A stretch of DNA of 34,280 nucleotides from a virus: the IMG/VR virus record IMGVR_UViG_3300012964_000031, positions 1-34,280 of that record; one strand, 5' to 3'. The position numbers and the translations under genes were made by a program. Shown here piece by piece: positions 4,958-31,000 of the stretch (positions are counted from its first letter, which is position 1; the number at the start of each line of letters is the position of its first letter). Below the pieces are notes generated by a model. That model worked only from the letters and a program-made list of their open reading frames with translations, was not told where the DNA came from and ran no database searches.

Positions 4958-5251
4958 ATGAGTAAGAAGGATCAGTACAGTTTCCCGACCGTAAGCGTAT
5001 GCCCGCGGTGCCGGGGGACCCAAACGCGGGCCGTCTCGACGCAGGGCCGGATCCAGTACCGCGTCTGTCAAGCGCCTGTATGCCGGCATCGGTACACGGT
5101 GACGGGGACGCTCGTAAAAATAAGCAAATCGAAAGAACGAAAGGAGCAAAACAATGGCCAAAAAACAAACAAGTCAGACCAGTCCGACAGGTCAGACAAG
5201 TCCGATCAATCTGTTGGCGAAGTATCCGGAGCTGCGCGACAAATTGATTGA
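4958..5251 (+). CDS. Small zinc-ribbon protein, Ogr/Delta-like
   Basis: This 97-residue protein starts with a strong AAGGAG site 7 bases before the ATG. Residues 15-44 hold CPRC, an 18-residue gap, then CQAPVC followed by RHRYTVTG. The C-x2-C...C-x4-C layout is that of the P2 Ogr/Delta late-transcription activators, although the rest of that family is not visible. The C-terminal third (KTNKSDQSDRSDKSDQSVG) is encoded by a GTCAGACAGGTC repeat and overlaps the next gene by 98 bases in another frame, so it is probably not a folded domain. It could be a late-gene activator; any single-ribbon DNA-binding protein would look the same. Confidence 0.6.
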   Translation: MSKKDQYSFPTVSVCPRCRGTQTRAVSTQGRIQYRVCQAPVCRHRYTVTGTLVKISKSKERKEQNNGQKTNKSDQSDRSDKSDQSVGEVSGAARQID

Positions 5252-5453
5252 AGCGCTTGGCACGGAGCACTTCATGGTGACGGTGCACTGCCAGCTCGTC
5301 AAACCGGGCACGCCTGGAGACTTGCAGCACTACCTCTTTCAATGCGCCTATCCGCCCGGCGATATCGTCGGCTCGCTCAAGCATATAGCGACCGTGCACG
5401 CGGCCAAAACCAACCCGGCGGCGGACGTCTCAGGCGTGAAAGGATGGATCTGA
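5154..5453 (+). CDS. Hypothetical phage protein with repeat-encoded N-terminus
   Basis: This 99-residue protein starts inside the preceding zinc-ribbon gene with a good GAAAGGAGC ribosome site. Residues 5-18 (QTSQTSPTGQTSP) come from the GTCAGACAGG repeat read in a frame different from the upstream gene, so one repeat tract encodes the end of one protein and the start of another. Residues 20-99 look like a compact alpha/beta protein (LLAKYPELRDKLIEAL, later FQCAYPPGDIVG). No family is recognised. It ends 2 bases before a 30-bp palindrome. Confidence 0.55.
   Translation: MAKKQTSQTSPTGQTSPINLLAKYPELRDKLIEALGTEHFMVTVHCQLVKPGTPGDLQHYLFQCAYPPGDIVGSLKHIATVHAAKTNPAADVSGVKGWI
5171..5207 (+). repeat. 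GTCAGACAGGTCSGACAG-type tandem repeat in coding sequence
   Basis: Four degenerate GTCAGAC/GTCCGAC units lie in the region where two genes overlap, and they are translated in both frames. Other copies occur at 9051, 26165, 27566 and 27716. Confidence 0.8.
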
Positions 5454-5455
5454 CA

Positions 5456-5485
5456 AAAATTCTTTACAACGTTGTAAAGAATTTT
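5456..5485. promoter_or_regulatory. 30-bp perfect palindrome, candidate operator or hairpin
   Basis: The half-site AAAATTCTTTACAAC is followed without a gap by its exact reverse complement, 2 bases after the stop codon of the upstream gene. As DNA it would suit a dimeric repressor or recombinase; as RNA it would form a long A/U-rich hairpin. A second, imperfect A-tract/T-tract inverted repeat follows at about 5492-5518. Together they open a 242-base non-coding segment before the virion genes. Confidence 0.75.
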
Positions 5486-5582
5486 CGTTTGGAAGCCAAA
5501 AAACGGCATTTTTTGCTTGTTTGGGGGCATTGAAAGTGGGCCAATAGAACCGATTTAACAACTGAAAACTGAATAATCTTTG

Positions 5583-9047: not shown

Positions 9048-9050
9048 CAA

Positions 9051-9088
9051 AAGTCGGACAGGTCAGACGGGTCGGACAGGTCAGACAA
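9051..9088 (+). repeat. GTCGGACAGGTCAGAC-type tandem repeat between protease and decoration genes
   Basis: Four GTCGGAC/GTCAGAC units occupy the gap after the protease stop and end 4 bases before AAGGAG and the next ATG. It is the same family as the copy at 5171, here untranslated. Confidence 0.85.
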
Positions 9089-9102
9089 AGTAAGGAGAAT
9101 TT

Positions 9103-9522
9103 ATGACAACCTATTCCAATTCACCGAAGACCTTCACGTCCGGCGCCGCCCTGGGCGTATTCTTGCGGGTCAAGATCGCCGGCGCCACGCGAAAGGCCTA
9201 TCTGGCCGGGGCCAGCGATTACGGCGTCGGGACGGTCCAGCAAGGCGTCGCCATCAATAAGGACGTCAGCATCCGGCTCTGGGATCACGGCGGCAGCCAC
9301 AAGTGCGTGGCCTCCGGCGCTATCCTCGCCGGTCGCAAGGTCTATGCCGCCGCCTCCGGCAAGATCGCCGCGACGGGGACGCTGCTGATCGGCACAGCGC
9401 TCGATGCCGCCAGCGGTAACAACAGCGTGATCGAGGTGCTGCCTCACCTGAACTATAAGCAATCGAGCAGCTCTTCCTCAAGTTCAAGTTCGAGCTCAAG
9501 CTCCTCTTCAAGCTCGAGCTAA
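9103..9522 (+). CDS. Capsid decoration protein copy 1 with poly-Ser tail
   Basis: Residues 1-118 form a beta-rich domain with repeated Gly/Ala turns (GVGTVQQGVAINKDVSIRLW, ILAGRKVYAAASGKI, GTLLIGTALDAASG). This pattern resembles DUF2190-type capsid cement proteins and stands in the position of lambda gpD, just before the major capsid gene. Residues 121-139 are 19 consecutive serines encoded by mixed AGC, TCN and AGT codons. The TAA at 9520 interrupts a longer Ser frame that continues for 26 more Ser codons. The second gene copy at 9659 is closely similar, especially from KVYAAASGKI onward. A ribosome site, AAGGAG, lies before the ATG. The tail probably faces outward on the capsid. Confidence 0.82.
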   Translation: MTTYSNSPKTFTSGAALGVFLRVKIAGATRKAYLAGASDYGVGTVQQGVAINKDVSIRLWDHGGSHKCVASGAILAGRKVYAAASGKIAATGTLLIGTALDAASGNNSVIEVLPHLNYKQSSSSSSSSSSSSSSSSSSS

Positions 9523-9603
9523 TCGTCCAGCTCGTCGAGCAGCTCTTCGTCATCGAGCTCATCGTCCAGCTCGTCGAGCAGCTCCTCGTCATCGAGCAGC
9601 TAA
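9520..9603 (+). other. In-frame continuation of the poly-Ser frame behind a TAA
   Basis: After the stop codon at 9520-9522 the same frame reads 26 Ser codons and nothing else before a second TAA at 9601. The stretch is a tandem pair of near-identical 39-base units (9523-9561 and 9562-9600). TAA differs from the Ser codon TCA by one base. It is either a fresh truncation of a 46-Ser tail or a leaky stop. Confidence 0.8.
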
Positions 9604-9658: not shown

Positions 9659-10048
9659 ATGACAACAATGGCCAACAGCCCGTTCACGTTGACGGCCGGG
9701 GCCGCCATTGCGGTGTTCCTGCGCGTCAAGGCCTACGGCCGGACCGGGTATCTCGCCGGGTCCTCTGACTACGGCGTCGGCACCGCCATCGAGGGCGTTG
9801 CCAGCGGCAAGATCGTGGCCGTGCGGCTCTGGGAGCATGGTGGCAGCCATAAGTGCGTCGCCTCCGGCGCGATCAGCGCCGGCGCTAAGGTCTATGCCGC
9901 CGCCTCCGGCAAGATCGCCGCCACGGGGACGCTCTTGATCGGGACGGCGCTCGATGCCGCCAGCGGCAATAACAGCGTGATTGAGGTGCTTCCGCACATC
10001 GGGCACACGCAGTCCTCATCGAGCAGCAGCAGCTCCTCGAGCAGTTAG
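9659..10048 (+). CDS. Capsid decoration protein copy 2 with poly-Ser tail
   Basis: This tandem paralogue of the gene at 9103 has the same beta-rich fold, with blocks such as SDYGVGT, GGSHKCVASGAI, KVYAAASGKIAATGTLLIG and ALDAASGNNSVIEVLPH shared almost unchanged. The N-terminal 70 residues have diverged more (AVFLRVKAYGRTGYLAG against GVFLRVKIAGATRKAYLAG). Residues 119-129 are 11 serines, then TAG. Two slightly different subunits may share the capsid lattice, or one may be used at special positions. The leader contains a short hairpin, TCCC-GAAA-GGGA, and the ribosome site GAGAAAGGG. Confidence 0.82.
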   Translation: MTTMANSPFTLTAGAAIAVFLRVKAYGRTGYLAGSSDYGVGTAIEGVASGKIVAVRLWEHGGSHKCVASGAISAGAKVYAAASGKIAATGTLLIGTALDAASGNNSVIEVLPHIGHTQSSSSSSSSSSS

Positions 10049-10066: not shown

Positions 10067-10114
10067 ATGAAAAAGAAACCCATACAGGGCAATGAAAAAG
10101 GAGTAAAACAATGA
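10067..10114 (+). other. Possible 15-codon leader peptide before the major capsid gene
   Basis: A short frame, MKKKPIQGNEKGVKQ, ends in a TGA that overlaps the capsid ATG (ATGA). It spans a 14-base direct repeat, GGGCAATGAAAAAG, at 10062 and 10087, of which only the second copy is followed by the working AAAGGAG site. It may be a translational coupler or simply a duplicated leader. Confidence 0.3.
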
Positions 10115-11070
10115 TTCAGAAATCAACCCACGCGGTGCCGCGAATGGATTTGGGCGTCGCCTTTCACGAGTACACGATGAGCAAGGTGCGACTGATCGCC
10201 GACGCCGTCCTGCCCATCCTGGGCGTCGCCAAGGAAGCGGCCACGATGAGCGTCACCAAGCGCAAGAACCTGACGATCCCCGCGACCAAACACGCGAACG
10301 GGGCAACGTACAATCGCGTCGAGCTCTATATGGACGATCTGGCCTACGCCTGCGTCGATCACGGTCTCGAAGGCCAGATCACGGACCGCGACCGCGAAAA
10401 GTACGCCAGTGACTTCGACGCCGAGGTTGAAAAGACCCAGGCGATCAAGACCAAGATGAAGCTGGCCAGAGAGAAGCGAGTTAAGGATCTTATCTTCAAC
10501 ACGACCACCTGGCCCAGCGGGACGGCCGCCCTCTATACGGACTATAGTTCCGCCCCTTGGGACGCCGCCGGCAGCAAGGTGATCAAACAACTCCAGACGG
10601 TCCGTGAACTGGTCCGGCTCAACTGCGGCGTCCCGGCGGATAGTCTCGTCATCAGCGAATCCTCCATGATCAACCTGATGAATAATACAGAGATTCTTGC
10701 CAAATTCCCCGGCGCCACGGCGATCACCGAGGCCATGCTGAGGGCGGCGATGGCGGCGATTTTAGGTATCCCGAACCTCATCGTCGGCCAGGCCGTCTAT
10801 AACTCCGCTGATGAGGGCCAGGATTTTAGCGGCGCCGAGATCTGGCCGGATGATTATGCCATGGTCGCTGTTCTGGGCGCCGACGGCCTGCCGATGACGG
10901 AGCCCCAGCTTGGCCGCACGATTCTGTGGGAGAATTACACACCCGACATCGAATACATCGAGATGTACCGCGAAAACCAGACCAAGAGTGACATCATCAA
11001 TGTCGAGCAGAGTATCGATGAGAAGGTCTTCGATGCCTACTTCGGCCATCTGATGAAGATCGATGCGTAA
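10111..11070 (+). CDS. Major capsid protein
   Basis: This HK97-fold shell protein has 319 residues and stands directly after the decoration genes and before the connector, as in lambda (gpE, 341 residues). Visible hallmarks are the N-terminal RMDLGVAFHEYTMSK, an E-loop-like charged region, LVRLNCGVPADSLVISESSM in the P-domain, and the C-terminal PDIEYIEMYRENQTKSDIINVEQ and KVFDAYFGHLMKI, typical of capsid proteins that end with a strand followed by a short helix. No poly-Ser tail is present, unlike its partners. The strong AAAAAGGAG ribosome site fits high expression. The stop overlaps the next start (TAATG). Confidence 0.88.
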   Translation: MIQKSTHAVPRMDLGVAFHEYTMSKVRLIADAVLPILGVAKEAATMSVTKRKNLTIPATKHANGATYNRVELYMDDLAYACVDHGLEGQITDRDREKYASDFDAEVEKTQAIKTKMKLAREKRVKDLIFNTTTWPSGTAALYTDYSSAPWDAAGSKVIKQLQTVRELVRLNCGVPADSLVISESSMINLMNNTEILAKFPGATAITEAMLRAAMAAILGIPNLIVGQAVYNSADEGQDFSGAEIWPDDYAMVAVLGADGLPMTEPQLGRTILWENYTPDIEYIEMYRENQTKSDIINVEQSIDEKVFDAYFGHLMKIDA

Positions 11071-11417
11071 TGAGCAGCGTCTTTGACGACACGCTGAAAG
11101 CGGCGGCGGATAGTTTTTTCCTGCTGCCGGACGCGGAATGGCTGACGTACTTTCCGCGAAACGGGGCCAGCCGGCGGATCCGGGCCGTAGTGACGCGAAG
11201 CGAATGGCTGGGGCTGCCGGGCGTAGAAGGCGGTTCCCGGCCACCGATGGAGGTTCTGGTGAAAAATAACGCCGCCGCCGGCATTGATAGTGAGACGGTT
11301 GATACCGGCGGCGACAGGATTGAAGTGGCCCCGAACATCAACGAGCCGCCTGCGATGTTCCGGATCGTGGAGATTGTCAATCACGATGCGGGCCTGATGC
11401 TCCTGAAGGTGCAATGA
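11070..11417 (+). CDS. Head-tail connector, gpFII-like
   Basis: The protein has 115 residues, close to lambda FII (117), and stands between the capsid and gpZ genes, where FII lies. It forms the interface between the completed head and the tail terminator. The sequence begins VFDDTLKAAADSFF, then GASRRIRAVVTR, GGSRPPMEVLVKN, DTGGDRIEV and a final strand-rich part, consistent with the small beta-barrel fold of this class. The C-terminal 118 residues of the giant fibre ending at 31543 are a clear paralogue (shared GGSRP-x2-E-x-LV-x-N and DTGGD). It overlaps the next gene by 4 bases. Confidence 0.75.
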   Translation: MSSVFDDTLKAAADSFFLLPDAEWLTYFPRNGASRRIRAVVTRSEWLGLPGVEGGSRPPMEVLVKNNAAAGIDSETVDTGGDRIEVAPNINEPPAMFRIVEIVNHDAGLMLLKVQ

Positions 11418-12476: not shown

Positions 12477-12899
12477 ATGGGAACGCTCTATGGCTGGACA
12501 TTAACAGGCTCGATCAGCGGCATCTTAGGCAAGCTGACCAACGTCGATTACAACGGTCTGAATATCGATGAGATCGACGTCACCAATGCCGATTCGAGCG
12601 GTCAGTGGAACGAATACGAGGCGGGGTTCAAGGACCCGGGCGTTGTTTCGGCCACGCTGATTTTCACCGCCGCCCTCTACGAGACGCTGCTGGCCGCCTT
12701 CGGCGTTAGCCAGACCTGGACCTTTGAGAAAGACACGAAGGTCTTTACGGTGGCTGGCTACGTCCGAAACCCGAATGTGACGATGCCCCTGCGCAGTGCC
12801 TCGACGTGCGCCATTGAGATCCGCTGCAGCGGAGCGCCGAGCTTCAATTCGTCCAGCAGCTCCTCAAGCAGCTCCTCGAGCAGCTCGTCAAGCAGCTAA
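12477..12899 (+). CDS. Major tail tube protein with poly-Ser tail
   Basis: This is the repeating subunit of the tail tube, gpV-like by position (after U, before G/GT). Residues 1-122 show a compact beta fold: GTLYGWTLTGSISGILGKLT, then NADSSGQWNEYEAGFKDPGV, a turn often conserved in tube proteins, and strands through CAIEIRCSG. Residues 125-140 are 16 serines up to the stop. Lambda gpV carries an Ig-like domain at exactly this C-terminal place on the tube surface, so the Ser tail would stud the outside of the tail. It has a strong AAGGAG ribosome site and expression is probably high. Confidence 0.8.
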   Translation: MGTLYGWTLTGSISGILGKLTNVDYNGLNIDEIDVTNADSSGQWNEYEAGFKDPGVVSATLIFTAALYETLLAAFGVSQTWTFEKDTKVFTVAGYVRNPNVTMPLRSASTCAIEIRCSGAPSFNSSSSSSSSSSSSSSSS

Positions 12900-15627: not shown

Positions 15628-16092
15628 ATGGCGACCTTTCCGACATTAACCCGGGCTGTTTCGCATCGCGGATGGCAGGAATCCAAGCTCATCGATCCCA
15701 CCATCCGGACGGAGTTCGTCTCAGGCGCGATTGCGACACGGGCGAGATTCTCAGGGACGGTCCCGGTGCTCTATAAGGTGACCTATCATCATATCTCGCC
15801 GGCGGACAAAGTCTCGCTGGAGGCGTTCGAGGATTCAATCGACGTCGGCACGACCACGTTCAACTGGTATAACATCCTGACGTCCACGATGTGGACCATG
15901 CGCCTGCACTCGCCGATCCAGTTCGGCCTGGAGCCCAACTGCATCGATAAATATTATGCGCAGATCGAAATGTTCGGCTCGGCGGGATCTTCAAGCTCGT
16001 CGTCCATTTCGTCCTCATCCTCTTCCTCTTCCTCGTCGCTTTCGTCATCAAGTTTTTCATCGTCTTCTTCGTCTTCATCATCGAGTGCCTGA
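15628..16092 (+). CDS. Minor tail protein M-like with poly-Ser tail
   Basis: This tail-tip protein comes directly after the tape measure and before the L-like protein, the position of lambda gpM. Residues 1-118 are beta-rich (FSGTVPVLYKVTYHHISPADK, TTFNWYNILTSTMWTMRL), as expected for the distal-tail barrel. Residues 121-153 are Ser-rich, with single Ile, Leu and Phe interruptions, ending in Ala. Its codons are mostly TCN rather than AGC, unlike other tails in this window, so this tract has an independent recent history. The surface-exposed tail at the baseplate edge could affect host contact. The start lies 1 base after the tape measure stop. Confidence 0.75.
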   Translation: MATFPTLTRAVSHRGWQESKLIDPTIRTEFVSGAIATRARFSGTVPVLYKVTYHHISPADKVSLEAFEDSIDVGTTTFNWYNILTSTMWTMRLHSPIQFGLEPNCIDKYYAQIEMFGSAGSSSSSSISSSSSSSSSSLSSSSFSSSSSSSSSSA

Positions 16093-17146: not shown

Positions 17147-19356
17147 ATAAAGAATTGAAGATCATCGTTGTTCGCAATCCTTTGGACGTCCAGAGGGACC
17201 GGCTCATTGTCTCGGCGCCGTTCGCCGGCCAGGACCTCCGTGACATCCTGGCCCAGTACGCCGCCGATCTGGAGTGCGTCATCGTCCGGATCAACGGCGT
17301 CAAGCTGCCGGCCGTCGAGAAGGACCACTACAATCAGACGCTTCGGCCGGGCGATGAGGTCCTTATCCTGCCCGCGGTCCATGATCCGGTCAGCGCCACC
17401 ATTGCCGTCGTTGCCTGGTTGGGTGCAGCCGCCGTCGCTGCCGCACCATATCTCATATCCGCCGCCATCAACATCGGGATATCCATTGGGATCGCCTACC
17501 TGATCCGGGCCATCGGAGGCTCGCCTGATGACGCGGACGTGGACAGCACCCCGTCCTATGGCTGGTCGCCCATTACGATTCAGAGGCAGGGCACGCCGGT
17601 CCCCAGGGCCTACGGCACCAACAAACAGCACGGCAACATCATCGCCGGCTGGCGCTCGCCCTCCGGCGCCGATGAGACCCTGAGCCTGCTGTTGGCGTTC
17701 AACGAGGGACCCGACAGCGGCATCGTCCCCGATACGATCTATGTGAACGGCCAGCCCATAGACAATTACGACTCGGTGATCACCTATGAGCGCAAAGGGC
17801 TGATGGAGCAATCCGCCATCTTTAGCGCGCTCAAATGCGAATATCAGCCGGAGCTGGAGGTGATTCACACCTCCGATGCTGGCGGTCCGGTCATCTGGAC
17901 GACGCCGGACAACGATTTCAACTCGCTGGAGATCGCCGTCAAGTACAGCGGTCACTATGTTCACCAGGATGGAGGAACCGAAACCCAAACCGTGGGTGTA
18001 AAGATCGAGATATCCGAGCACGGCGCCGAGGATTGGTATACCCTGGCCAACGAGCTGCTGAACTGCGCCACGACGCCGCTGCAGAAGAACTACCTCTCGA
18101 CCGGCACCTACACCGGTGGCGCCGCTGTTGCGATCACTAAGGGCACCCGCTGCGATATCCGGATCACCAAGACCAACGCCGGGCGGATCTGGGACGCGAA
18201 TCGAAAGAGCCGGTATCTTTATCTCTCGACCGTCCGTGAGGTCATCGCCACGGCCTTCGAGTATCCGGGCTTGTCGCTGTTGGGGATATCGGCTATCGCC
18301 ACCGAAGACCTCAGCGGGGCGATGGAGGTCTCCTGTATCCGCAAGGGCCGCATCGTCAACGTCTATAACGGCTCGATCTGGACGCTGCAATGGTCGGATA
18401 ATCCCGCCTGGGTGATCTGGGATATCTTGACCCGGCCGGTGATCTCGGGCGATGGCGGCGGCACCCCATACGCCATTGAGCGGTACGATGGCATCGATCC
18501 GGCCCGGCTGACGGCTTATCTCGATGAGTGGTATGAGGCGGCCGAATATTTCGATGATTCCATTTCGGACGGCAAAGGGGGCTACGAAAAACGCATCATC
18601 TTCAACGGCGTCTTCGACTTTCAAACCACCATCTGGGACGCCGTGGATAAAGTCTGCGCGATAGCCCGCTGTGAGGTGCTGCGGATCGGCCGCAATTATA
18701 CGATCTTAGTCGATAAGCCGGACGCCTCGACCCCGGTCCAGTTGTTCAGCGCCGGCAATATCAAGCCGGGTACGTTTCGCCGCAACTACATCGACCTCAA
18801 TGACCGGGCCGGTGAACTGGAAATAGACTATCAGGATTTAGACCTCGACTACGAGATGACCCCGATGCTCCACGTGGACCAGGCCATCGATAGTCACGCG
18901 GTCAAGACCATCGAAGGATTCGGGATCACGCGGGCCTCGCAGGCCTGGCGGGCGATCTATTATGAGCTCGCCAAAAACCGAATCCTCAAGTACATGGTCG
19001 AGTTCGAGGCGGACATCGACGCCATCGCGTGCAAAAAAGGCGATATCGTGTTGGTGGTCGAGCCCTGGCGATTGGGCGGCCGCGTGGTCGCCAGCACCGC
19101 CGCCAACAAGGTGACGCTCGACGTGGCGCCGGCGCTCAGCGCCGCCGATACGATTGCCGTGCGGGTCAATCACCCCGATACGGGCGCTGAGACGGTCGAG
19201 ACGCACACGGTCGCCTCCGTCGCCGGGGCGGTCGTGACGATCGCCGACACCTGGACGGTGAGGCCGAAAAAGGACGATCTCTACGCCTTCGGCCCGACGG
19301 CAACCATCCTGAAGAAATTCCGCGTGGTCGGGATCGTCGAGGGTTCGGAACTATGA
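17143..19356 (+). CDS. Tail hub protein: gpI-like N-terminus fused to gpJ-like body
   Basis: This protein has about 737 residues. The first 75 (KIIVVRNPLDVQ through RPGDEVLILPAVHD) have the beta-grasp, MoaD-like look of lambda gpI, followed by a hydrophobic stretch, roughly 80-122 (TIAVVAWLGAAAVAAAPYLI, then NIGISIGIAYLI), as in gpI. The remainder, from TPSYGWSPITIQRQGTPVPR, is a gpJ-type central hub with SDNPAWVIWDILTRP, FDFQTTIWDAVDKVCAIARC and a C-terminal beta domain (KKGDIVLVVEP, WRLGGRVVA). It lacks the fibronectin-like domains and long tail of lambda J (1132 residues). I chose the ATG at 17143, which overlaps the K stop (ATGA); the frame is open upstream without function. The fibre genes follow. 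Confidence 0.83.
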   Translation: MNKELKIIVVRNPLDVQRDRLIVSAPFAGQDLRDILAQYAADLECVIVRINGVKLPAVEKDHYNQTLRPGDEVLILPAVHDPVSATIAVVAWLGAAAVAAAPYLISAAINIGISIGIAYLIRAIGGSPDDADVDSTPSYGWSPITIQRQGTPVPRAYGTNKQHGNIIAGWRSPSGADETLSLLLAFNEGPDSGIVPDTIYVNGQPIDNYDSVITYERKGLMEQSAIFSALKCEYQPELEVIHTSDAGGPVIWTTPDNDFNSLEIAVKYSGHYVHQDGGTETQTVGVKIEISEHGAEDWYTLANELLNCATTPLQKNYLSTGTYTGGAAVAITKGTRCDIRITKTNAGRIWDANRKSRYLYLSTVREVIATAFEYPGLSLLGISAIATEDLSGAMEVSCIRKGRIVNVYNGSIWTLQWSDNPAWVIWDILTRPVISGDGGGTPYAIERYDGIDPARLTAYLDEWYEAAEYFDDSISDGKGGYEKRIIFNGVFDFQTTIWDAVDKVCAIARCEVLRIGRNYTILVDKPDASTPVQLFSAGNIKPGTFRRNYIDLNDRAGELEIDYQDLDLDYEMTPMLHVDQAIDSHAVKTIEGFGITRASQAWRAIYYELAKNRILKYMVEFEADIDAIACKKGDIVLVVEPWRLGGRVVASTAANKVTLDVAPALSAADTIAVRVNHPDTGAETVETHTVASVAGAVVTIADTWTVRPKKDDLYAFGPTATILKKFRVVGIVEGSEL

Positions 19357-19616
19357 GCCGCAAGATTGTTCTGATCGAATACGACGAGGATATTTACGAT
19401 GGCGATGATATGGAGCCGAACATCCAGGATCCCAATTTCTACAATGCCGACCAGGGCGGCGAGACGGCCGCCGCGGCCGCCGAGGCGCTCGAAAGCGAGC
19501 GCGTGGACGCCAAGATCGAGGTTCAGCTCTCGGACCTGCACAGTTACCTGATTGGAATATCGAGCAGCAGCTCCTCGAGTTCTTCAAGCAGCAGTTCCTC
19601 AAGTTCCGGGGCCTGA
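19353..19616 (+). CDS. Small fibre-base paralogue ending in poly-Ser
   Basis: The 87-residue protein begins RKIVLIEYDEDIYDGDDMEP, almost the same as the start of the next gene, continues as an acidic helical segment, and ends with 16 serines (residues 70-85) and Gly-Ala. The paralogue at 19618 reaches its Ser tract at residue 69, so both share the same layout, but here nothing follows the serines. It may be an attachment piece for the hub without a fibre, or the remnant of a fibre gene that lost its distal part by recombination in the Ser tract. The start overlaps the hub stop (ATGA). Confidence 0.7.
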   Translation: MSRKIVLIEYDEDIYDGDDMEPNIQDPNFYNADQGGETAAAAAEALESERVDAKIEVQLSDLHSYLIGISSSSSSSSSSSSSSSSGA

Positions 19617-22142: not shown

Positions 22143-22155
22143 AAGATTGAATTCT

Positions 22156-22770
22156 ATGACTGAATCCCAGCCTCAATTTCCCGACCTCGAGACCTGGCGG
22201 CGGACAGTCGTCAAGCCGGGCGATCTGCCTCAATATCTGAGACAGGATTTCTACGATTATTACAAGAGCAAATTCGAGATTGCCCTATCCGCCCGGCCCC
22301 AAGTCATCTGTGAGATCGGGGTGCGGTGGGGCTATTCGGCCTTCAGCTTTTTGTGTGCAGCCTCTGCGGCCCATTATACGGGATTCGATATTGTGGACGG
22401 CACGCACGGTGGGGCCCGAGGGCTGGATACATTCGATTATGTAAGGACTATGCTCAGCGGCCATTTCCCACAGGCCGTCATCGATCTTCGCCATGAGGAT
22501 ACCCGCAAGCTTCGCGACTTAGGCGGGCCTTACGACTTGGTCCACGTGGACGGCGATCACAGCGAGGACGCCGCCTCTCACGATATCTGGATGGCCCTCC
22601 GGGCCTGCCGTCCGGGCGGGATGGTCCTGGTCGATGACTACAACTATATCGCCGGGGTGACAAGGGCGGCGGATTACATCCTGTCCGGCGCGCCCGAGCA
22701 GATAGCCCGCCATTGGACGCAGGATTCGCTGCGAGGTGAATTGATTCTAATCAAAGGGGATCCGAAATGA
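22156..22770 (+). CDS. Class I SAM-dependent methyltransferase 1
   Basis: The 204-residue protein has the Rossmann motif I CEIGVRWGYSAFSFL, motif II AHYTGFDIVDG, and YDLVHVDGDHSEDAASHDIW with RPGGMVLVDDY, the layout of the Methyltransf_24 family, whose members often methylate sugars or antibiotics. No DNA-recognition domain is seen, so it is not a restriction-type enzyme. It opens a block of seven modification genes. I chose the ATG at 22156; a TTG at 22147 is possible but not needed. It overlaps the next start by 4 bases. A sugar O-methyltransferase role is inferred from the glycosyltransferases downstream. Confidence 0.8.
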   Translation: MTESQPQFPDLETWRRTVVKPGDLPQYLRQDFYDYYKSKFEIALSARPQVICEIGVRWGYSAFSFLCAASAAHYTGFDIVDGTHGGARGLDTFDYVRTMLSGHFPQAVIDLRHEDTRKLRDLGGPYDLVHVDGDHSEDAASHDIWMALRACRPGGMVLVDDYNYIAGVTRAADYILSGAPEQIARHWTQDSLRGELILIKGDPK

Positions 22771-23258
22771 TCAAACTGCGGCCCTCGATAGAGATTGTTC
22801 GCCATTGCTGCCCGGCCCCCGTCGCCGGCGCCGAGATCGGCGTTTTGGGCGGCGGCCACGCCGTCACTATGCTCCGCAATTTCCCTGAGCTGCGGATGCT
22901 TCATCTGGTCGATTCCTACGGCGGTATCAGCGAGCAGGACCCCAAGGTGATCGAGTTCAAGAATCGTTTCGCCCCCGAATCGCAGCGGATCCGCTGGCAC
23001 ATCCGCACGTCGCTGGACGCCTCCATTGAATTTGCCGACGGCTCGCTGGATTTCGTCTATATCGACGCGAATCACCGCTATTTCGAAGTCGCCCGGGACA
23101 TCCGGGCCTGGTGGCCCAAGGTCAAAGCGACGGGCCTTTTGTGCGGACACGATTATTTCAGTCATGGCTCAGTAAAACAGGCCGTCGATGACTGGGCCAA
23201 AGAATTCAATCATTACATCTTTTCGACCGCACCCGACTGGTGGTGCTTCAAGGAGTGA
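22767..23258 (+). CDS. Class I SAM-dependent methyltransferase 2
   Basis: The 163-residue protein has a short form of the class I fold: AGAEIGVLGGGHAVTMLRNF as motif I, LHLVDSYGG as the acidic strand-2 end, then DGSLDFVYIDANHRYFEVAR and WPKVKATGLLCGHDY. It belongs with Methyltransf_24-like enzymes but is divergent from its neighbours, with less than a third of residues in common by eye. The end WWCFKE closes the final strand. The start overlaps the upstream stop (ATGA) and the next gene begins 1 base after its stop, so the three methyltransferases are translated as a block. Confidence 0.78.
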   Translation: MIKLRPSIEIVRHCCPAPVAGAEIGVLGGGHAVTMLRNFPELRMLHLVDSYGGISEQDPKVIEFKNRFAPESQRIRWHIRTSLDASIEFADGSLDFVYIDANHRYFEVARDIRAWWPKVKATGLLCGHDYFSHGSVKQAVDDWAKEFNHYIFSTAPDWWCFKE

Positions 23259-23259
23259 C

Positions 23260-23868
23260 ATGGACATCGACTATAACCAGCTCATCAAGGACAGCAATAA
23301 CCGCATCGCCGCCCTCGATTTGCAGCTCTTGGAGCGGGCCTGCGATCATTGCCGGGCAAAAACGATTCTGGAGATCGGCTCGGCCGACGGCGGCTCCTCG
23401 GTCATACTCGGCCTCAAGGCCAAAGAGCGCGGTGGGCATCTCTATTGCATCGAGCCTCAGCCGAAAGGTCGCATGAAGGCGAACATGACCGCCCATGATT
23501 TGGAGGGTGTTTACACCCTCATCGCTAAAGCGTCCCCATGGATCCAGTTCGAGGCCATACCGCCAATCGACCTATTGTTCATCGACGGTCGTCACGATCT
23601 TCGCTGGTGCCTGGTTGATTATCACTATTGGCAGCCGAAGGTCCGCGTCGGCGGCGTCATTGTCTTTCACGATACGAGCGGTCATTGCCAGGAAGACCGC
23701 CGCCAATCCGGCTACGGCCAGCCGGGCTATAAGCCTCTCGTGCAGCGGGCCATCGATATCATCCTGACGACGGACGCGCTGCGGATTGTCGGCATTTCAG
23801 AGACCCCCAACGGCGGGGCTATCGCCTTCGAGAAAACTGAATTCATCGAATCGAAAGGAACGCCATGA
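23260..23868 (+). CDS. Class I SAM-dependent methyltransferase 3
   Basis: This protein has about 202 residues. Motif I is ILEIGSADGGSSVILGL, the acidic end of strand 2 is LYCIEPQPKGRM, and the catalytic-core part is IDLLFIDGRHDLRWCLVDYH with VRVGGVIVFHDTSGH. The DGRH and HD residues are those used for metal or substrate binding in the cephalosporin-hydroxylase/CmcI-like and Methyltransf_24 enzymes. I chose the ATG at 23260, 4 bases after AAGGAG; the frame is open further upstream only as a shadow of methyltransferase 2. It overlaps the epimerase gene start by 4 bases. The substrate is unknown, likely a sugar hydroxyl. Confidence 0.8.
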   Translation: MDIDYNQLIKDSNNRIAALDLQLLERACDHCRAKTILEIGSADGGSSVILGLKAKERGGHLYCIEPQPKGRMKANMTAHDLEGVYTLIAKASPWIQFEAIPPIDLLFIDGRHDLRWCLVDYHYWQPKVRVGGVIVFHDTSGHCQEDRRQSGYGQPGYKPLVQRAIDIILTTDALRIVGISETPNGGAIAFEKTEFIESKGTP

Positions 23869-24746
23869 ATATCTTAGTCACCGGCGGGGCCGGCTTCATC
23901 GGCCGGCACGTTTGCGCCAATCTGATTGCCCGCGGCCACAAGGTCCTTGTCTATGATGTCGTCAAACCTGACTGGCCGGGCGTGATTCATACGAGCGGCT
24001 GTGTCCAGGATAAGAGCAAACTCTGGTCCGCCATCGAGATTGCCGACGCCGTGATGCACTTGGCCGGCGTCTTGGGCACGGCTGAGACCATCGAAGATCC
24101 ACTCTTGCCGATCAACGTGAATATCACCGCGTCGGTGGACGTGTTCGAGGCCTGCCGAAGGTTCCACAAGCGGGCCTGCTATATCGCGGTGGGCAATCAC
24201 TTTATGAACAATTCATACGCGATCACCAAGACAACCGCCGAGCGTTTCGCCCTGATGTACAACAAAGAGCACGGGACAAAGATCGCCGTCGTGCGAGGCC
24301 TCAATGCTTATGGTCCCTACCAGAAGCATAAGCCCGTCCGCAAGGTCATCCCGAATTTCATCATCCCCGCCCTGCGAAATGACCCCATCATCATCTATGG
24401 CTCCGGCGAGCAGATCATGGACTTCATCTACGTGGAGGACTTAGCGGAAATTTTGTGTCGGGCCTTGCTGGATGATCACGGCTGCTATGACCGCATCTTC
24501 GAGGCGGGCAGCGGCCATCGTATGACGATCAACGAGGTCGCCGAGATAGTGATCCACCTGGCGAGATCATCATCGCGGATTGATCATCATGCTATGCGCG
24601 GCGGCGAGACGAACGATTCGATCGTGGTGGCGGACGTGCGGACGCTGGCGCCGTTGAAGTACTCCGTCGCCGGGATGATCGCATTGGAAGAGGGTCTGAC
24701 CCGGACCATCGATTACTACCGAGAGCACCTGGAACTTTATCCATGA
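23865..24746 (+). CDS. NAD-dependent sugar epimerase/dehydratase (extended SDR)
   Basis: The 293-residue protein has a nucleotide-sugar fold. The NAD-binding motif GGAGFIG is at residues 7-13, DVV at the end of the second strand, HLAGV at 65-69, and the active-site Tyr118-x3-Lys122 in SYAITKTTAERF. The later RGLNAYGP and GSGEQIMDFIYVEDLAE are signatures of UDP-hexose or GDP-hexose epimerases and dehydratases. Odd: only about 10 residues separate the YIAVG strand and Tyr118, so the loop that normally carries the catalytic Ser/Thr seems shortened. It probably makes an activated sugar for the glycosyltransferases that follow. It overlaps both neighbours by 4 bases. Confidence 0.82.
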   Translation: MNILVTGGAGFIGRHVCANLIARGHKVLVYDVVKPDWPGVIHTSGCVQDKSKLWSAIEIADAVMHLAGVLGTAETIEDPLLPINVNITASVDVFEACRRFHKRACYIAVGNHFMNNSYAITKTTAERFALMYNKEHGTKIAVVRGLNAYGPYQKHKPVRKVIPNFIIPALRNDPIIIYGSGEQIMDFIYVEDLAEILCRALLDDHGCYDRIFEAGSGHRMTINEVAEIVIHLARSSSRIDHHAMRGGETNDSIVVADVRTLAPLKYSVAGMIALEEGLTRTIDYYREHLELYP

Positions 24747-25462
24747 AACTTTTCTTTTTCACCTACGTGGATCGCAATCCCAAGTATCGGGCGGAGGCCG
24801 ATATCCTGATTCGGTCCGGGCGGCGGTTCGGTCGGGACATTTATCTATTCGAGATCCCCGATGGTGCGATGTGGAACCGATACAAGGTCGATCTCTTGGC
24901 TGCTGAGCTACCCGCCGCTGACCGCTACATCTGCCTCGATAGCGATACGATCCTGACGGGCCCGGGCGATTGGGAGGCGGAGGATTGTCAGGGCGTGATG
25001 GATATCCTGTATTATTGCGATGAACATGAGCGGGACAAACATACGAAGGCCTTCATCCGCAATCACACCATCTGCCGTGGCGATCCGGGCGCCTACGACT
25101 GCGTTCTATCGCTGTGGCGACAATTCAATGATCCGATCTGGCCGAACAGCGGCGTCGTGGTCCTCGATGCTGGAATCCGCCTGCCCTTTGCCGAGTGCTG
25201 GAAGCAGTGGATGGCCCAGATTGATAGCCACTGTGATCGAGGCTATATCATCGGCGATGAAGCGCCCTGCATGTTCGCCCGGCACGAGTTCGGCCTTCCG
25301 CTGCTGCCGCCGCGATTCAACATCTGCTTGAAATGGCAACCCGTGCCGGCCGATGCCGTGCTCCTGCACGCCGACGGCAACGTCACGGGCGAAAAACGAA
25401 TCCCTTACAATGAAGTTTTGGAAGATCTGATCGCCTATGAGCGAACCGCAAAAGCCTTATGA
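24743..25462 (+). CDS. Glycosyltransferase, GT-A fold with DxD motif
   Basis: The 239-residue protein has the layout of a retaining GT8-like transferase: KLFFFTYVDRNPKYRAEAD at the N-terminus, the metal-binding D66-S67-D68 in YICLDSDTIL, PNSGVVVLDAG in the middle, GYIIGDEAPCMFA, and a C-terminal LLHADGN where GT8 enzymes have a metal-binding His. No membrane segment is present, so it is cytoplasmic. A role in transferring the first sugar to a protein or in extending a glycan is plausible. It overlaps the epimerase by 4 bases and the next gene by 26. The exact sugar cannot be predicted. Confidence 0.72.
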   Translation: MKLFFFTYVDRNPKYRAEADILIRSGRRFGRDIYLFEIPDGAMWNRYKVDLLAAELPAADRYICLDSDTILTGPGDWEAEDCQGVMDILYYCDEHERDKHTKAFIRNHTICRGDPGAYDCVLSLWRQFNDPIWPNSGVVVLDAGIRLPFAECWKQWMAQIDSHCDRGYIIGDEAPCMFARHEFGLPLLPPRFNICLKWQPVPADAVLLHADGNVTGEKRIPYNEVLEDLIAYERTAKAL

Positions 25463-26213
25463 GATTTCAAATCTCGAATCTCAAATTATCTTCCCGCCCT
25501 GGTATGGTGAGTTGGGCTGGGAGGTGATGACCTGGGCGCCCTTCTGCCGGCGGGCGGCCCAAGGCCATGAACGGGTAATCGTGACGACCTTCGATGGGAT
25601 GGCTCCCTTATACGCCGACTTCGCCACCGAGTTTCGCTCGAATGGAGAGAGGGCCCGCTCGCTGACGTATCCCAAGCATTATCGCGTCAAGGGCCTCCAT
25701 TACCGGTACGGCCGGCGCGAGAAGGCGGGGACGTATTTCGACCTATTGATTCATGCCAGGGGCGTCGCCCGCAAGAGCAGTATCAATTATCGCTACTGGC
25801 CCCAGCTTGCGGACCTCATCGAGCGCAAGGGCTGGTCGGTGGCCTGGATCGGCGGGCCGAAGGATACCTGGCAGCCCGGCTGCGGTTTCGATCTGCGAGG
25901 CCTGGAGCTTCAAAAGCTGATGGACATTATCGCCGCCTCGAGGTTGGTCATAGGCGTCAGCTCGGGGATCATGCACTTAGCGGCCGCGTGCGGAACGGAC
26001 TTACTCGTCTGGGGCGATCGCCGGACCTATTTCGGCGAGACGCTTGAGACGCGCTACAAGGCAACATGGAACCCGCACCAGGTCCGGGTCGGCTGGATTG
26101 ACGCCGACAACTGGCAGCCGGAACCGCAGCGGATCATCGAAGAAATCGAAACAATAATCAATAAGACGGGTCAGACAGGTCGGACAGGTCAGACAATGAA
26201 AGGACAGCAATGA
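25437..26213 (+). CDS. GT9-like glycosyltransferase (heptosyltransferase fold)
   Basis: The 258-residue protein has a C-terminal half with LMDIIAASRLVIGVSSGIMH and LAAACGTDLLVWGD, the donor-binding S-G-x-x-H-x-A signature of the GT9/ADP-heptose transferase family. The N-terminal part (PPWYGELGWEVMTWAPFCRR) has the short GELGW turn used by this group instead of GDxL. Residues 8-17 (EISNLESQII) are encoded by an AAATCTCAAATC repeat, and the last 14 (KTGQTGRTGQTMKG) by a GTCAGACAGG repeat, so both ends look added. The length is shorter than heptosyltransferases (about 320). It overlaps the next gene by 4 bases. Confidence 0.72.
   Translation: MSEPQKPYEISNLESQIIFPPWYGELGWEVMTWAPFCRRAAQGHERVIVTTFDGMAPLYADFATEFRSNGERARSLTYPKHYRVKGLHYRYGRREKAGTYFDLLIHARGVARKSSINYRYWPQLADLIERKGWSVAWIGGPKDTWQPGCGFDLRGLELQKLMDIIAASRLVIGVSSGIMHLAAACGTDLLVWGDRRTYFGETLETRYKATWNPHQVRVGWIDADNWQPEPQRIIEEIETIINKTGQTGRTGQTMKGQQ
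26165..26196 (+). repeat. GTCAGACAGGTCGGACAG repeat at the end of the GT9-like gene
   Basis: Four units are read as TGQTGRTGQT at the C-terminus of the upstream protein and end close to the AAAGGAC site of the next gene. The family is described at 5171. Confidence 0.85.
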
Positions 26214-28078
26214 AAATTCTCTTGCGCAATACCCAACCGCTCTTGGGCGACCGGCTGATGTTCACACCTTTAGTGCGGGATTTGAAAAAGGCCCATCCCG
26301 ACTGGCGGATCGGCGTCGAATCGGCCGGGCCGGAGATCTGGCTGAATAATCCACACGTGGATTGCTCGATCAATGAGGCGAACGCCGACAAGATCTACGA
26401 CGTCGGGCCGGGCAAGGTGACGCGGGGCAGTAAGACCAACGGCTTGCACATCACAGCAGCCTTCCGCTGCTCGCTGGAAGAGCAGTTAGGCGAGGCAATT
26501 GCCCAGGGTCCCTTCAAGCCGGACGTTTATCTTTCAGACGCTGAGAAGGCCCAGCGCATGATCGACGGCGACTATTGGGTGATCAATTGCGACACGGGGC
26601 CTTTCACCGCCAAGCGCTGGCCGTTAGAGCGATTTCAGGCCGTGGTAAATGCATTGCCGGACCTGACGTTCGTTCAGGTCGGCTTAGGCAAGGACTGTCA
26701 CGGCCGGCTCAAAGCCCCCAATGTCATCGACCTGATCGACGGGACCAAGGTCCGCGAACTCTTCAGCCTGGTCTATCACGCCCATGGCTGCATCAGCCTG
26801 GTCAGTTCGCTCATGCACGTCGCTGCCGCCTTCGATAAGCCTTGCGTAGTGATCGCCGGCGGACGCGAGCCGCCGACCTTCGAACGGTACGCCTGGCATC
26901 GCTACATCGACAACGTCGGCTGCCTGCCCTGCTGCAAGATGCAGGCCTGCTGGCACAATGCGCTATCCGCCTGTAAGGACCATGATGACAATTACGCCCA
27001 TTGCATGAGGCTCATAGAGGCCCCTGACGTCGTCTCAGCCGTGCGATCCTATTATCGGGGGGGAAGGCTCGAATCGCCCAGGTCTATCAAAGCGGCGGCC
27101 ACGCTGCGGCCGTTGCTGCGTATCGTGGCGAAAGGCTCATTCTTAGGTGGGGCCGAGCGGTCCTGGACCACGATTGCCCGGCTTTTCGTCAAGAACAACT
27201 GGCGGGTCGAGATCTCGCCCCCCGATCCGCTGAATCCCGCCGTCGCCGCCCAACTGCCGCCGGAGGCCATCGTGACGAACCATCTCTCTCGCCCCTGCGA
27301 TGTGCTGCTGTTCTATGCCTCGGATCTGGTGTTCAGCTTCGATGACCCCAAGTACGGCATCTTTGAGGAGCTGCGGTCCGGCCGCAAGGTCATGGCCCTG
27401 ACCTATAAGATCGGCAAGGCGGGCGAGGTCCCCTGGACCAAAGGCTGGGACCGGTATCTCTTTCTCTCGACCGCGCTTCGGGACGGCTTTCAGGCGAAGG
27501 TTGGAAAGGCAGTGTTTTCAAGTTGCGTTCTCGCCCCCTGTGTGGACCTTGAACCGTTTCTGAGAATGTCCGACAAGTCAGACAGGTCCGACAAGTCCGA
27601 CCAGATTCGATTAGTTCGCCATTCGAGCCAGGGCGATAAGAAGTACCCGATGAGCCTCTTGCAGATCATGGCCGAGACGAAGGCCCGGTATAACTTCATG
27701 CCTAAACCGGGCTTTTTGTCGGAGAGATCGGACAAGTTAGACTGGTCCGATTGGTCCGACGACCCCGAGAAGGTCGCCGCCTTTCTTGCCTCCGGCAATT
27801 GCTTCTGGTACCTGCTCCCGGACGGCTACACCGACCAGGGCCCGCGCGTGATCGTCGAGGCGATGGCCGCGGGCCTGCCGGTGATCGCCGAGAACCGCGA
27901 CGGCGCCGCCGATCGCGTCACGCCGGAAACCGGATGGCTCATCGATCGGCATGAGGAGGCAATCGAAATAATCTCAAATCTCAAATCTGAGATTTTGATG
28001 GCGAAGGGCCGGGCCGCCCGCCAGCGGGCCATCGAAGAATTCAAACCGCTAAAATGGTTCGAGGCCATCGTGAAATAA
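26210..28078 (+). CDS. GT9-GT4 glycosyltransferase fusion
   Basis: This two-domain enzyme has 622 residues. Residues 1-280 form a GT9-like domain: NTQPLLGDRLMFTPLVRDLK at the start, then GPFTAKRWPLERF and GCISLVSSLMHVAAAFDKP, the family's donor site. Residues about 300-622 form a GT4-like domain with KGSFLGGAERSWTTIARLF at the start and TDQGPRVIVEAMAAGLPVI with AENRDGAADRV at the donor site (the E-x7-E region here is GPRVIVEAM). Two stretches, RMSDKSDRSDKSDQIRLVRH (about 453-472) and SERSDKLDWSDWSDD (about 505-519), come from GTCCGACAAGTC repeats, and ISNLKSEIL from an AAATCTCAAATC repeat. Such an enzyme could add two sugars in sequence. Confidence 0.75.
   Translation: MKILLRNTQPLLGDRLMFTPLVRDLKKAHPDWRIGVESAGPEIWLNNPHVDCSINEANADKIYDVGPGKVTRGSKTNGLHITAAFRCSLEEQLGEAIAQGPFKPDVYLSDAEKAQRMIDGDYWVINCDTGPFTAKRWPLERFQAVVNALPDLTFVQVGLGKDCHGRLKAPNVIDLIDGTKVRELFSLVYHAHGCISLVSSLMHVAAAFDKPCVVIAGGREPPTFERYAWHRYIDNVGCLPCCKMQACWHNALSACKDHDDNYAHCMRLIEAPDVVSAVRSYYRGGRLESPRSIKAAATLRPLLRIVAKGSFLGGAERSWTTIARLFVKNNWRVEISPPDPLNPAVAAQLPPEAIVTNHLSRPCDVLLFYASDLVFSFDDPKYGIFEELRSGRKVMALTYKIGKAGEVPWTKGWDRYLFLSTALRDGFQAKVGKAVFSSCVLAPCVDLEPFLRMSDKSDRSDKSDQIRLVRHSSQGDKKYPMSLLQIMAETKARYNFMPKPGFLSERSDKLDWSDWSDDPEKVAAFLASGNCFWYLLPDGYTDQGPRVIVEAMAAGLPVIAENRDGAADRVTPETGWLIDRHEEAIEIISNLKSEILMAKGRAARQRAIEEFKPLKWFEAIVK
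27566..27604 (+). repeat. GTCCGACAAGTCAGACAG repeat inside the GT9-GT4 gene
   Basis: Four to five units are translated as MSDKSDRSDKSDQ in the middle of the GT4 domain. A second copy follows at 27716-27762 and an AAATCTCAAATC element at 27970-27996, all keeping the frame. Confidence 0.85.
27716..27762 (+). repeat. Second GTCSGAC-type repeat inside the GT9-GT4 gene
   Basis: Degenerate units are read as LSERSDKLDWSDWSDD, 150 bases after the first copy and in the same frame. Confidence 0.75.
27970..27996 (+). repeat. AAATCTCAAATCTCAAATC-type repeat inside the GT9-GT4 gene
   Basis: The unit is read as ISNLKSEIL near the C-terminus. Related elements lie at 25461-25487 (start of the GT9-like gene), 2956-2980 and 4930-4947 (ATCATAA forms) and about 32724-32750. 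Confidence 0.7.
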
Positions 28079-31000
28079 ATGTCAACCACAGGGGCGAAAT
28101 TTCCGACCGCATCGTCCACCACATCAGAGGCCCCCTACGATCATCTGACCTGGCAGACGCCGAACAACATCTTCGGCAACGAAGGCAACAACTGCTACAT
28201 TGACGACAACGCCTTCGATAGCGGCATCGAATCCTACATCCTCAAGGGCAAAGGTTTTGACTTTTCCGTCATCCCCGACAGCGCGACCATCGTCGGCGTC
28301 ACCGTCAAGGTGGAAGCCCACTATACCACTGGCGCCGCCGGCATTGCCTTGGCCCAGCTCTTAGATACCAGCGGCGCCAAGGTGGGAACGAACCTCTGCT
28401 CGACGCCCAAACCAATCACTCAAACGACGCCGACCGTGATTACGATCGGCGCGGCGGACAATCTCTGGGGCAACGTCCTGACGCCTCAATGGGTGAAGGA
28501 CCCCGATTTCGGCGTCGCGCTCGGGGTGATCCCGACGGGCAATAATTCCAATGTCTATATCGACTACGTCACGATGGAAGTGACCTACGCCGAATCCAGC
28601 TCCAGCTCCTCGAGCAGCAGCTCAAGTTCGAGCAGCAGCGAGTCGTCTTCCAGCTCTTCGCTAAGTTCGAGCAGCAGCGAATCGTCTTCCAGCTCATCTT
28701 CGTCTTCGAGCCAGTCGAGCAGCTCCTCTTCACAGTCGAGCAGCTCGACAAGTTCCAGCTCTTCATCATCGAGCAGTTTTTCAGCGACGCCTTTGCCCGG
28801 TTTTCTCGTCACGGATGACATCACGAACTATATTAATCTCAACCATACGATACACCGAAAGCTGGTACGAACATCGAACGGGGATTTGCACTGTGTCTAT
28901 TACCGTACCATTTCGGGATACAATCAAATCTGCTACGCCAAATCGACGGATGGCGGAGAAACATGGGCCGAGACACAACTAACTTCTGCCAATTATGGTC
29001 AGTCCAATCCAGCGATAGCAGTTGATTCGAATGATGTTCTCCACGTCGTTTGGGAAGGCAAATCAGCCGGCAGCACCACCAACGCACAAATCCGCTACAT
29101 GAAATACGACGGTTCGTGGAGCGGCATTACTGAATTGACCGACAGCACAAAGGGAGACGGCGCGCAAACCTATTGTGGCATCGCCGTCGATTCGAATGAT
29201 TATCTTCACGTCTGCTGGGAAGGTAAACCGGAAGGTGGTTCTTATCACCAAATTCGCTATATCAAATTTACAGATTCATGGCAGACCATTGTAGATTTAT
29301 CCTCTGAAACCTACGATCAGGGTGTTCCCACTATTGGCGTCGCTCCCAATGATAATGTTCACGTATTCTGGGATGGCCAGAACGATGCGTCGCCAACCCA
29401 TGTCCAAGTCCACCATCGTGTCTATACGGATTCGTGGCAGGATATTGAAGACCTCACATCAAGTGAATGGAGTTCATACGAACCGCACTGTGCGTTTGAT
29501 TCAAGCGGCAACGTGCATTTAGCTTATCAAAGTCAGGAAGAGACTGTATGGAATGTCAGATACCGGCTCTACAACGGCTCCTGGCAGGCCGAGGTGGATA
29601 TAACAAGTGGAAGCATCTACGAGAACTCATCTATTACGATTGCTGTCGATGCTCAGGATGATATACACGTTGCTTGGAATGGTTATCACGCTGGTTCGTC
29701 GAGCACCTACCAAATCCGCTACCGCCTCTATAACGGTTCCTGGCAGGCGATTCAAAACCTCACGGAATATTTACCCGAGCAGCGGGTGCCCAATCTGATC
29801 TGGGCCTATCATCCCATCATCGGCGGCGCCCGAACGAATCGCCCGGCGACGGGCTATGCCCTGATCTGGGCCAACGATAATTCAGAGATCCGCTATTTAG
29901 CCAGTGACGATCTAACCTGGGATCCGCCGAGTTCTTCATCGAGCTCCTCGGAATCTTCAAGCAGCAGCGAATCGAGTTCCAGCCAGTCGTCTTCCAGCTC
30001 GTCATCAAGCCAAAGCTCCAGCTCGTCGTCCTCGAGTTCGTCGCAGTCCAGCTCCAGCAGTTCGTCAAGCCTGAGCTCCAGTTCGTCCAGCAGCAGCGAA
30101 TCGTCCTCAAGCTCATCGTCCTCGCTGAGCTCCAGTTCGAGCAGCAGCCTTTCGTCCAGCTCATCATCCAGCAGCCTTTCCAGCAGTTCGTCCAGCAGCT
30201 CGCTGTCGTCCAGCTCATCGTCATCGAGCCTTTCGTCCAGCTCATCATCGAGCGAAAGCTCCAGCTCTTCGAGCAGCTCAAGCTCCGAATCGATTTCATC
30301 GTCCAGCAGCTCGCTTTCGTCAAGCTCATCGTCATCGAGCCAAAGTTCCAGCTCTTCGAGCAGCTCAAGTTCCGAGTCGAGTTCATCGTCCAGCAGCTCG
30401 CTTTCGTCAAGCTCATCGTCATCGAGCCTATCGTCCAGTTCGTCATCGAGCCAAAGTTCCAGCTCTTCGAGCAGCTCAAGTTCCGAGTCGAGTTCATCGT
30501 CCAGCAGCTCGCTTTCGTCAAGCTCATCGTCATCGAGCCAGTCGAGCAGCAGCAGCCAATCGAGTTCCAGCCAGTCGTCTTCAAGCCAATCGTCTTCAAG
30601 CCAATCGTCTTCAAGCTCGCAGTCGTCATCGAGCCAGTCGAGCAGCAGCAGCCAATCGAGTTCCAGCCAGTCGTCTTCCAGCTCGCAATCGTCATCGAGC
30701 CAGTCGAGCAGCAGCAGCCAATCGAGTTCCAGCCAATCGTCTTCCAGCTCGCAATCGTCATCGAGCCAGTCGAGCAGCAGCAGCCAATCGAGTTCCAGCC
30801 AGTCGTCTTCAAGCTCGCAATCGTCATCGAGCCAGTCGAGCAGCAGCAGCCAATCGAGTTCCAGCCAATCGTCTTCAAGCTCGCAATCGTCATCGAGCCA
30901 ATCGAGCAGCAGCAGCCAATCGAGTTCCAGCCAGTCGTCTTCAAGCTCGCAATCGTCATCGAGCCAGTCGAGCAGCAGCAGCGAGTCGTCTTCCAGCCAA

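Follow-up and report, generated by a model that had tools for sequence, protein, structure and literature searches.

Paired serine-tailed cement genes upstream of the major capsid gene

The sequence analysed here, which we call the window, is the whole 34,280-nt stretch of virus record IMGVR_UViG_3300012964_000031, presumably of metagenomic origin, like IMG/VR records in general. Just upstream of the major capsid protein gene (10111..11070, plus strand; phrog_1005, E 3.5e-42; ending in TAAT), the window carries two cement (decoration) protein genes on the same strand. The first, c1 (9103..9522), encodes a protein of 139 aa with 19 terminal serines, and the second, c2 (9659..10048), encodes a protein with a short tail of 11 Ser. 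Both score above the curated Pfam cutoff of 24 bits for Phage_cement_2 (PF09956), with 25.4 bits for c1 and 29.6 bits for c2. A tblastn comparison of c1 with annotated phages gave no match, and neither did a sequence search of solved structures with the cement protein.

An in-frame stop codon divides the serine tract of c1

The serine tail of c1 spans 19 codons (9463..9519, plus strand) and is closed by a TAA at 9520..9522. Reading on in the same frame, we found that all 26 codons at 9523..9600 specify serine (26/26) and that they are followed by a second TAA at 9601..9603, just as the original prediction had described; its figure of 46 serines for a tail without the first stop also holds (19 + 1 + 26 = 46). 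The 39-bp tandem duplication that it had noticed in this segment was recovered by Tandem Repeats Finder at 9514-9597 (period 39, 2.2 copies, 95% matches). Unit 1 of the repeat (9514..9552, plus strand) contains the TAA, while unit 2 (9553..9591, plus strand) has TCA at the matching codon. Apart from this base of the stop, the units differ at only one more, in a synonymous TCT/TCC pair.

We surveyed 91 stops that follow Ser-rich runs, taken from the window together with 62 fetched loci (both counts include overlapping loci), and the c1 stop is the sole one with a further in-frame Ser run behind it (6/6); the one other site flagged in this survey, with 4/6 Ser, lies on the opposite strand of L003/L027. 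Because it is unique among the stops surveyed, the second Ser run behind the c1 stop is far beyond chance. In the intact tail, 29 of 414 one-base changes would create a stop. Codon usage differs between the two parts of the tract, with TCG at 3/19 codons and two AGT codons before the stop, as compared with TCG at 10/26 and no AGT after it, and the two parts could therefore have arisen separately.

Serine tails of related phages differ in length

Of the relatives with a locus that spans this region, most have two cement genes. In 14 distinct pairs (from the window and loci L003-L037), tails count 6-16 Ser in the short copy and 16-96 in the long one, a contrast that random pairing of the same lengths reached in 138 of 200,000 trials, to be taken as a guide only, since the relatives are non-independent. 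The c1 gene belongs to the long class (16-96), where a tail of 46 Ser stands in the middle and one of 19 Ser near the bottom. We considered shared descent as the basis of the long and short classes and rejected it: class labels change 14 times on the tree, as compared with 15.2 for shuffled labels, and length class therefore does not follow the core phylogeny.

Even near-identical phages have tails of different length, and these differences keep the frame: 9 nt in L010/L011 (99% identity), 9 nt in L034/L035 (flanks at 99.96-100%), and 117 nt, or 3x39, in L020/L022 (flanks at 99.7-99.9%). Assembly effects may play a part in these differences, above all in that between L020 and L022. Separately, L034 carries at 5412-5500 a tandem duplication of ~51 nt that bears the cement gene TAA and 3' sequence, and that is absent from the near-identical L035.

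The second stop is very probably the ancestral one

Counted from the first TAA, c2 starts after a gap of 136 nt; counted from the second, the gap is 55 nt. Relatives have 15-63 nt between the stop of their first cement gene and the start of the next. Ser coding past the stop was found in none of the 44 other Ser-tailed cement genes (0/44); in the closest relative, L003/L027, the tail runs through 33 Ser and three Ala (AAA) to a single stop. Considering this spacing to c2 and the relatives, the second TAA is very probably the ancestral stop of c1.

The first TAA, in turn, is very probably a recent nonsense change, at under ~5% neutral divergence. There are zero non-Ser changes past it at ~58 effective non-synonymous sites, and the resulting upper 95% bound on its age is ~0.052 neutral substitutions per site, with neutrality assumed and substitutions alone counted. 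A very recent truncation was one of the options put forward in the original prediction, and it agrees with the spacing to c2, with the tails of relatives running unbroken to one stop, and with the absence of change at the ~58 sites. The prediction had further proposed looking for the internal stop in relatives; none of them has it, and hence a degenerate post-stop region in relatives, which had been named as possible counter-evidence, does not apply as a refutation. An exact-pattern scan of viral contigs, in which either TAA or TCA was allowed, found no same-species copy, so that the direction of the change rests on spacing and parsimony.

Taken on the letters of the locus and its relatives, the features expected of a recent nonsense truncation are present, namely a putative ancestral stop downstream, an intact frame up to it, and relatives that do not have the first stop. 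We therefore consider it likely that TCA changed to TAA (or that an equivalent step took place) recently in the Ser tail of a long-tailed c1, in a phage of probable Planctomycetota hosts.

Alternative explanations

A broader reading, which we regard as doubtful, is that the Ser tails are a fast-changing, selected and length-variable surface feature, with one short and one long paralogue per genome and lengths altered by in-frame slippage. Under it, a nonsense codon beside a TCA copy would amount to a reversible length switch, and the glycosyltransferases of the window (see below) may add sugars to the serines.

It is unlikely that the first TAA is an artefact of assembly or base calling, or else a minor allele in the consensus, in which case the population would have TCA and an unbroken tail of 46 Ser (33 if one repeat unit is extra). 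Such an error would fit a virus record derived from a metagenome and a site inside a 39-bp tandem repeat, where the TAA and TCA states are one base apart and a stop-free copy adjoins. On the other hand, the tandem units differ at two separate bases, and the genes of the window otherwise align in frame with those of L003, with no sign of general low quality.

The order of events could also be the reverse: a shorter tail was originally closed by the first TAA, and the Ser segment behind it was added later, through recombination or duplication that drew on another poly-Ser tract. The different codon usage on the two sides of the stop would fit such an addition, as would the 19 Ser of the shorter tail, which are within the family range, the abundance of poly-Ser tracts in this genome, and the stop-bearing tandem duplication of L034. 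We nevertheless judge it very improbable: the insertion would have to be exactly in frame and to end in a stop, the second stop fits the spacing to the next gene, and no recent donor was seen in the loci, where the best match elsewhere is ~77%. Since a match at that level is not a recent copy, we rejected another gene as the source of the segment.

Functional read-through, where a few ribosomes pass the TAA and the same capsid thereby carries tails of 19 and of 46 residues, had been raised in the original prediction as the other option, but it was not borne out and is, in our estimation, very improbable. The first stop is a TAA followed by T, and of the termination signals used by bacteria UAA-U is reported to work most efficiently (PMC5289835). 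Recoding of TAA was rejected, considering that TAA terminates 10 other genes of the window; TAAT, moreover, terminates the major capsid gene. Neither the window nor any of 25 related loci yielded a tRNA gene, and hence a suppressor tRNA, with the proviso that the contig may be incomplete. The combination of stop and open extension is not conserved, as none of the 44 other Ser-tailed cement genes has it, and the group already has two tail lengths made from two genes (here c1 and c2). What favours read-through is an extension that is fully open and all Ser, together with a strong predicted RNA structure (z about -5) that begins ~10 nt into the post-stop segment. Poly-Ser tracts, however, fold strongly in general (mean z -2.6, with several near or below -5), and about 3 of 39 are near or beyond z about -5; the fold behind the c1 stop, although strong, is similar to the strongest among the other poly-Ser tracts and may simply reflect the coding repeats. 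The model for a single gene that gives capsid proteins of two lengths is phage Qbeta, whose A1 read-through protein depends on a leaky UGA and has a folded extension, whereas c1 has UAA-U and a homopolymer.

Fold and probable position of the serine tail

An AlphaFold model built from 37 sequences has a high-confidence core (pLDDT over 90 for residues 11-110, by blocks) and a low-confidence tail. The model fold matches the N-base of phi29 gp8.5 (Z 14.6, and also 14.4), a chain of HFTV1 (8QSY; Z 14.0) and a chain of TW1 (Z 10.5). The capsid-stabilising protein of HFTV1 attaches to the outer surface of capsid-protein trimers (PMC12494034), and phi29 gp8.5 consists of a base and a stem that protrudes from the head (PMC6542822). 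Because the modelled fold matches the gp8.5 N-base and the HFTV1 chain, the serine tail of c1 probably points outward.

With the PF09956 cement and capsid-stabilising proteins (phi29 gp8.5 N-base, HFTV1 CSP and TW1), c1 shares the profile match, the fold and the place upstream of the major capsid gene; what sets the present group apart is a pure Ser tail of very variable length and the occurrence of short- and long-tailed paralogues. The likeness to the phi29 gp8.5 head fibre extends to a C-terminal extension behind the common base fold, but in gp8.5 this extension is a structured trimeric stem, while in c1 it is low-complexity Ser of low predicted confidence, and there is no evidence here for a fibre function. 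In the Dec protein of phage L, the tail trimerises into a spike that is reportedly required for binding. Tails among the relatives of c1 range from 6 to 96 Ser, and this range argues against a strict Dec-like binding role.

Long Ser homopolymers likewise occur in bacterial proteins of the marine polysaccharide degraders Saccharophagus and Teredinibacter. There, polyserine tracts are linkers that join enzyme domains, in contrast to the C-terminal tails of virion proteins seen here.

A probable recent nonsense change in a tail of variable length

Returning to a recent nonsense change as the likely origin of the c1 stop, the original stop would be the TAA at 9601, and the c1 product would now have a tail of 19 Ser where it formerly had 46. 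The folded domain, which from the fold match probably sits on the outer capsid face, would be unaffected, so the truncation should shorten a flexible, outward-facing tail without preventing capsid binding. Tail length varies quickly in this group as repeat units are gained or lost in frame, and to these differences the nonsense change would add one more; slippage that loses one 39-bp unit could, in principle, delete the stop again. The c1 stop thus most likely arose by ordinary mutation, within a tail of unusually fast-changing length, and is a modest case: a young nonsense change seen before decay has set in.

The paired, length-variable Ser tails are more noteworthy than the stop itself. In open-licence PMC full text, we found no papers dealing with serine-rich tails of decoration proteins or with poly-serine in phage capsids, and no description of tailed phages, here with probable planctomycete hosts, whose cement proteins have pure-Ser tails that are strongly variable in length and come in short and long pairs. 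If the tails are indeed exposed and modified, they could provide a simple, tunable surface layer for the virion.

Probable hosts and other genes of the window

Two relatives are placed in bacterial MAGs, one (70% capsid identity) in that of a member of the Phycisphaerae and the other, more distant, in that of an uncultured planctomycete. These placements suggest that the hosts are probably Planctomycetota, although the viral contigs could have been mis-binned. Poly-Ser tracts elsewhere in the L063 MAG were not detected with a narrow DNA pattern, which also missed the known L063 tails.

The window has a gene cluster at 22147-28078, with three Methyltransf_24 genes, an NAD epimerase and two GT9-type glycosyltransferases, one of them with a GT1 domain. 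The cluster may serve sugar modification of the virion or of the host surface; that sugars are added to the tail serines is a guess.

Ser tails of ~16-34 residues are also encoded by three other genes of the structural region, at 12477-12899 (tail-tube-like, just under the Pfam cutoff), 15628-16092 and 19353-19616. A much larger predicted protein of 1154 aa, encoded at 28079-31543 and also counted with the structural region, contains 466 serines in runs spaced by Q, E and L. Over its final ~110 residues it is similar to the small protein encoded at 11070-11417 (35% identity via the L003 homologue). Finally, short repeats of the ACAAGTCAGACAAGTCCG / AGACAGGTC type are dispersed within and between genes, at 5169-5205, 9050-9090, 26164-26195 and 27568-27601.
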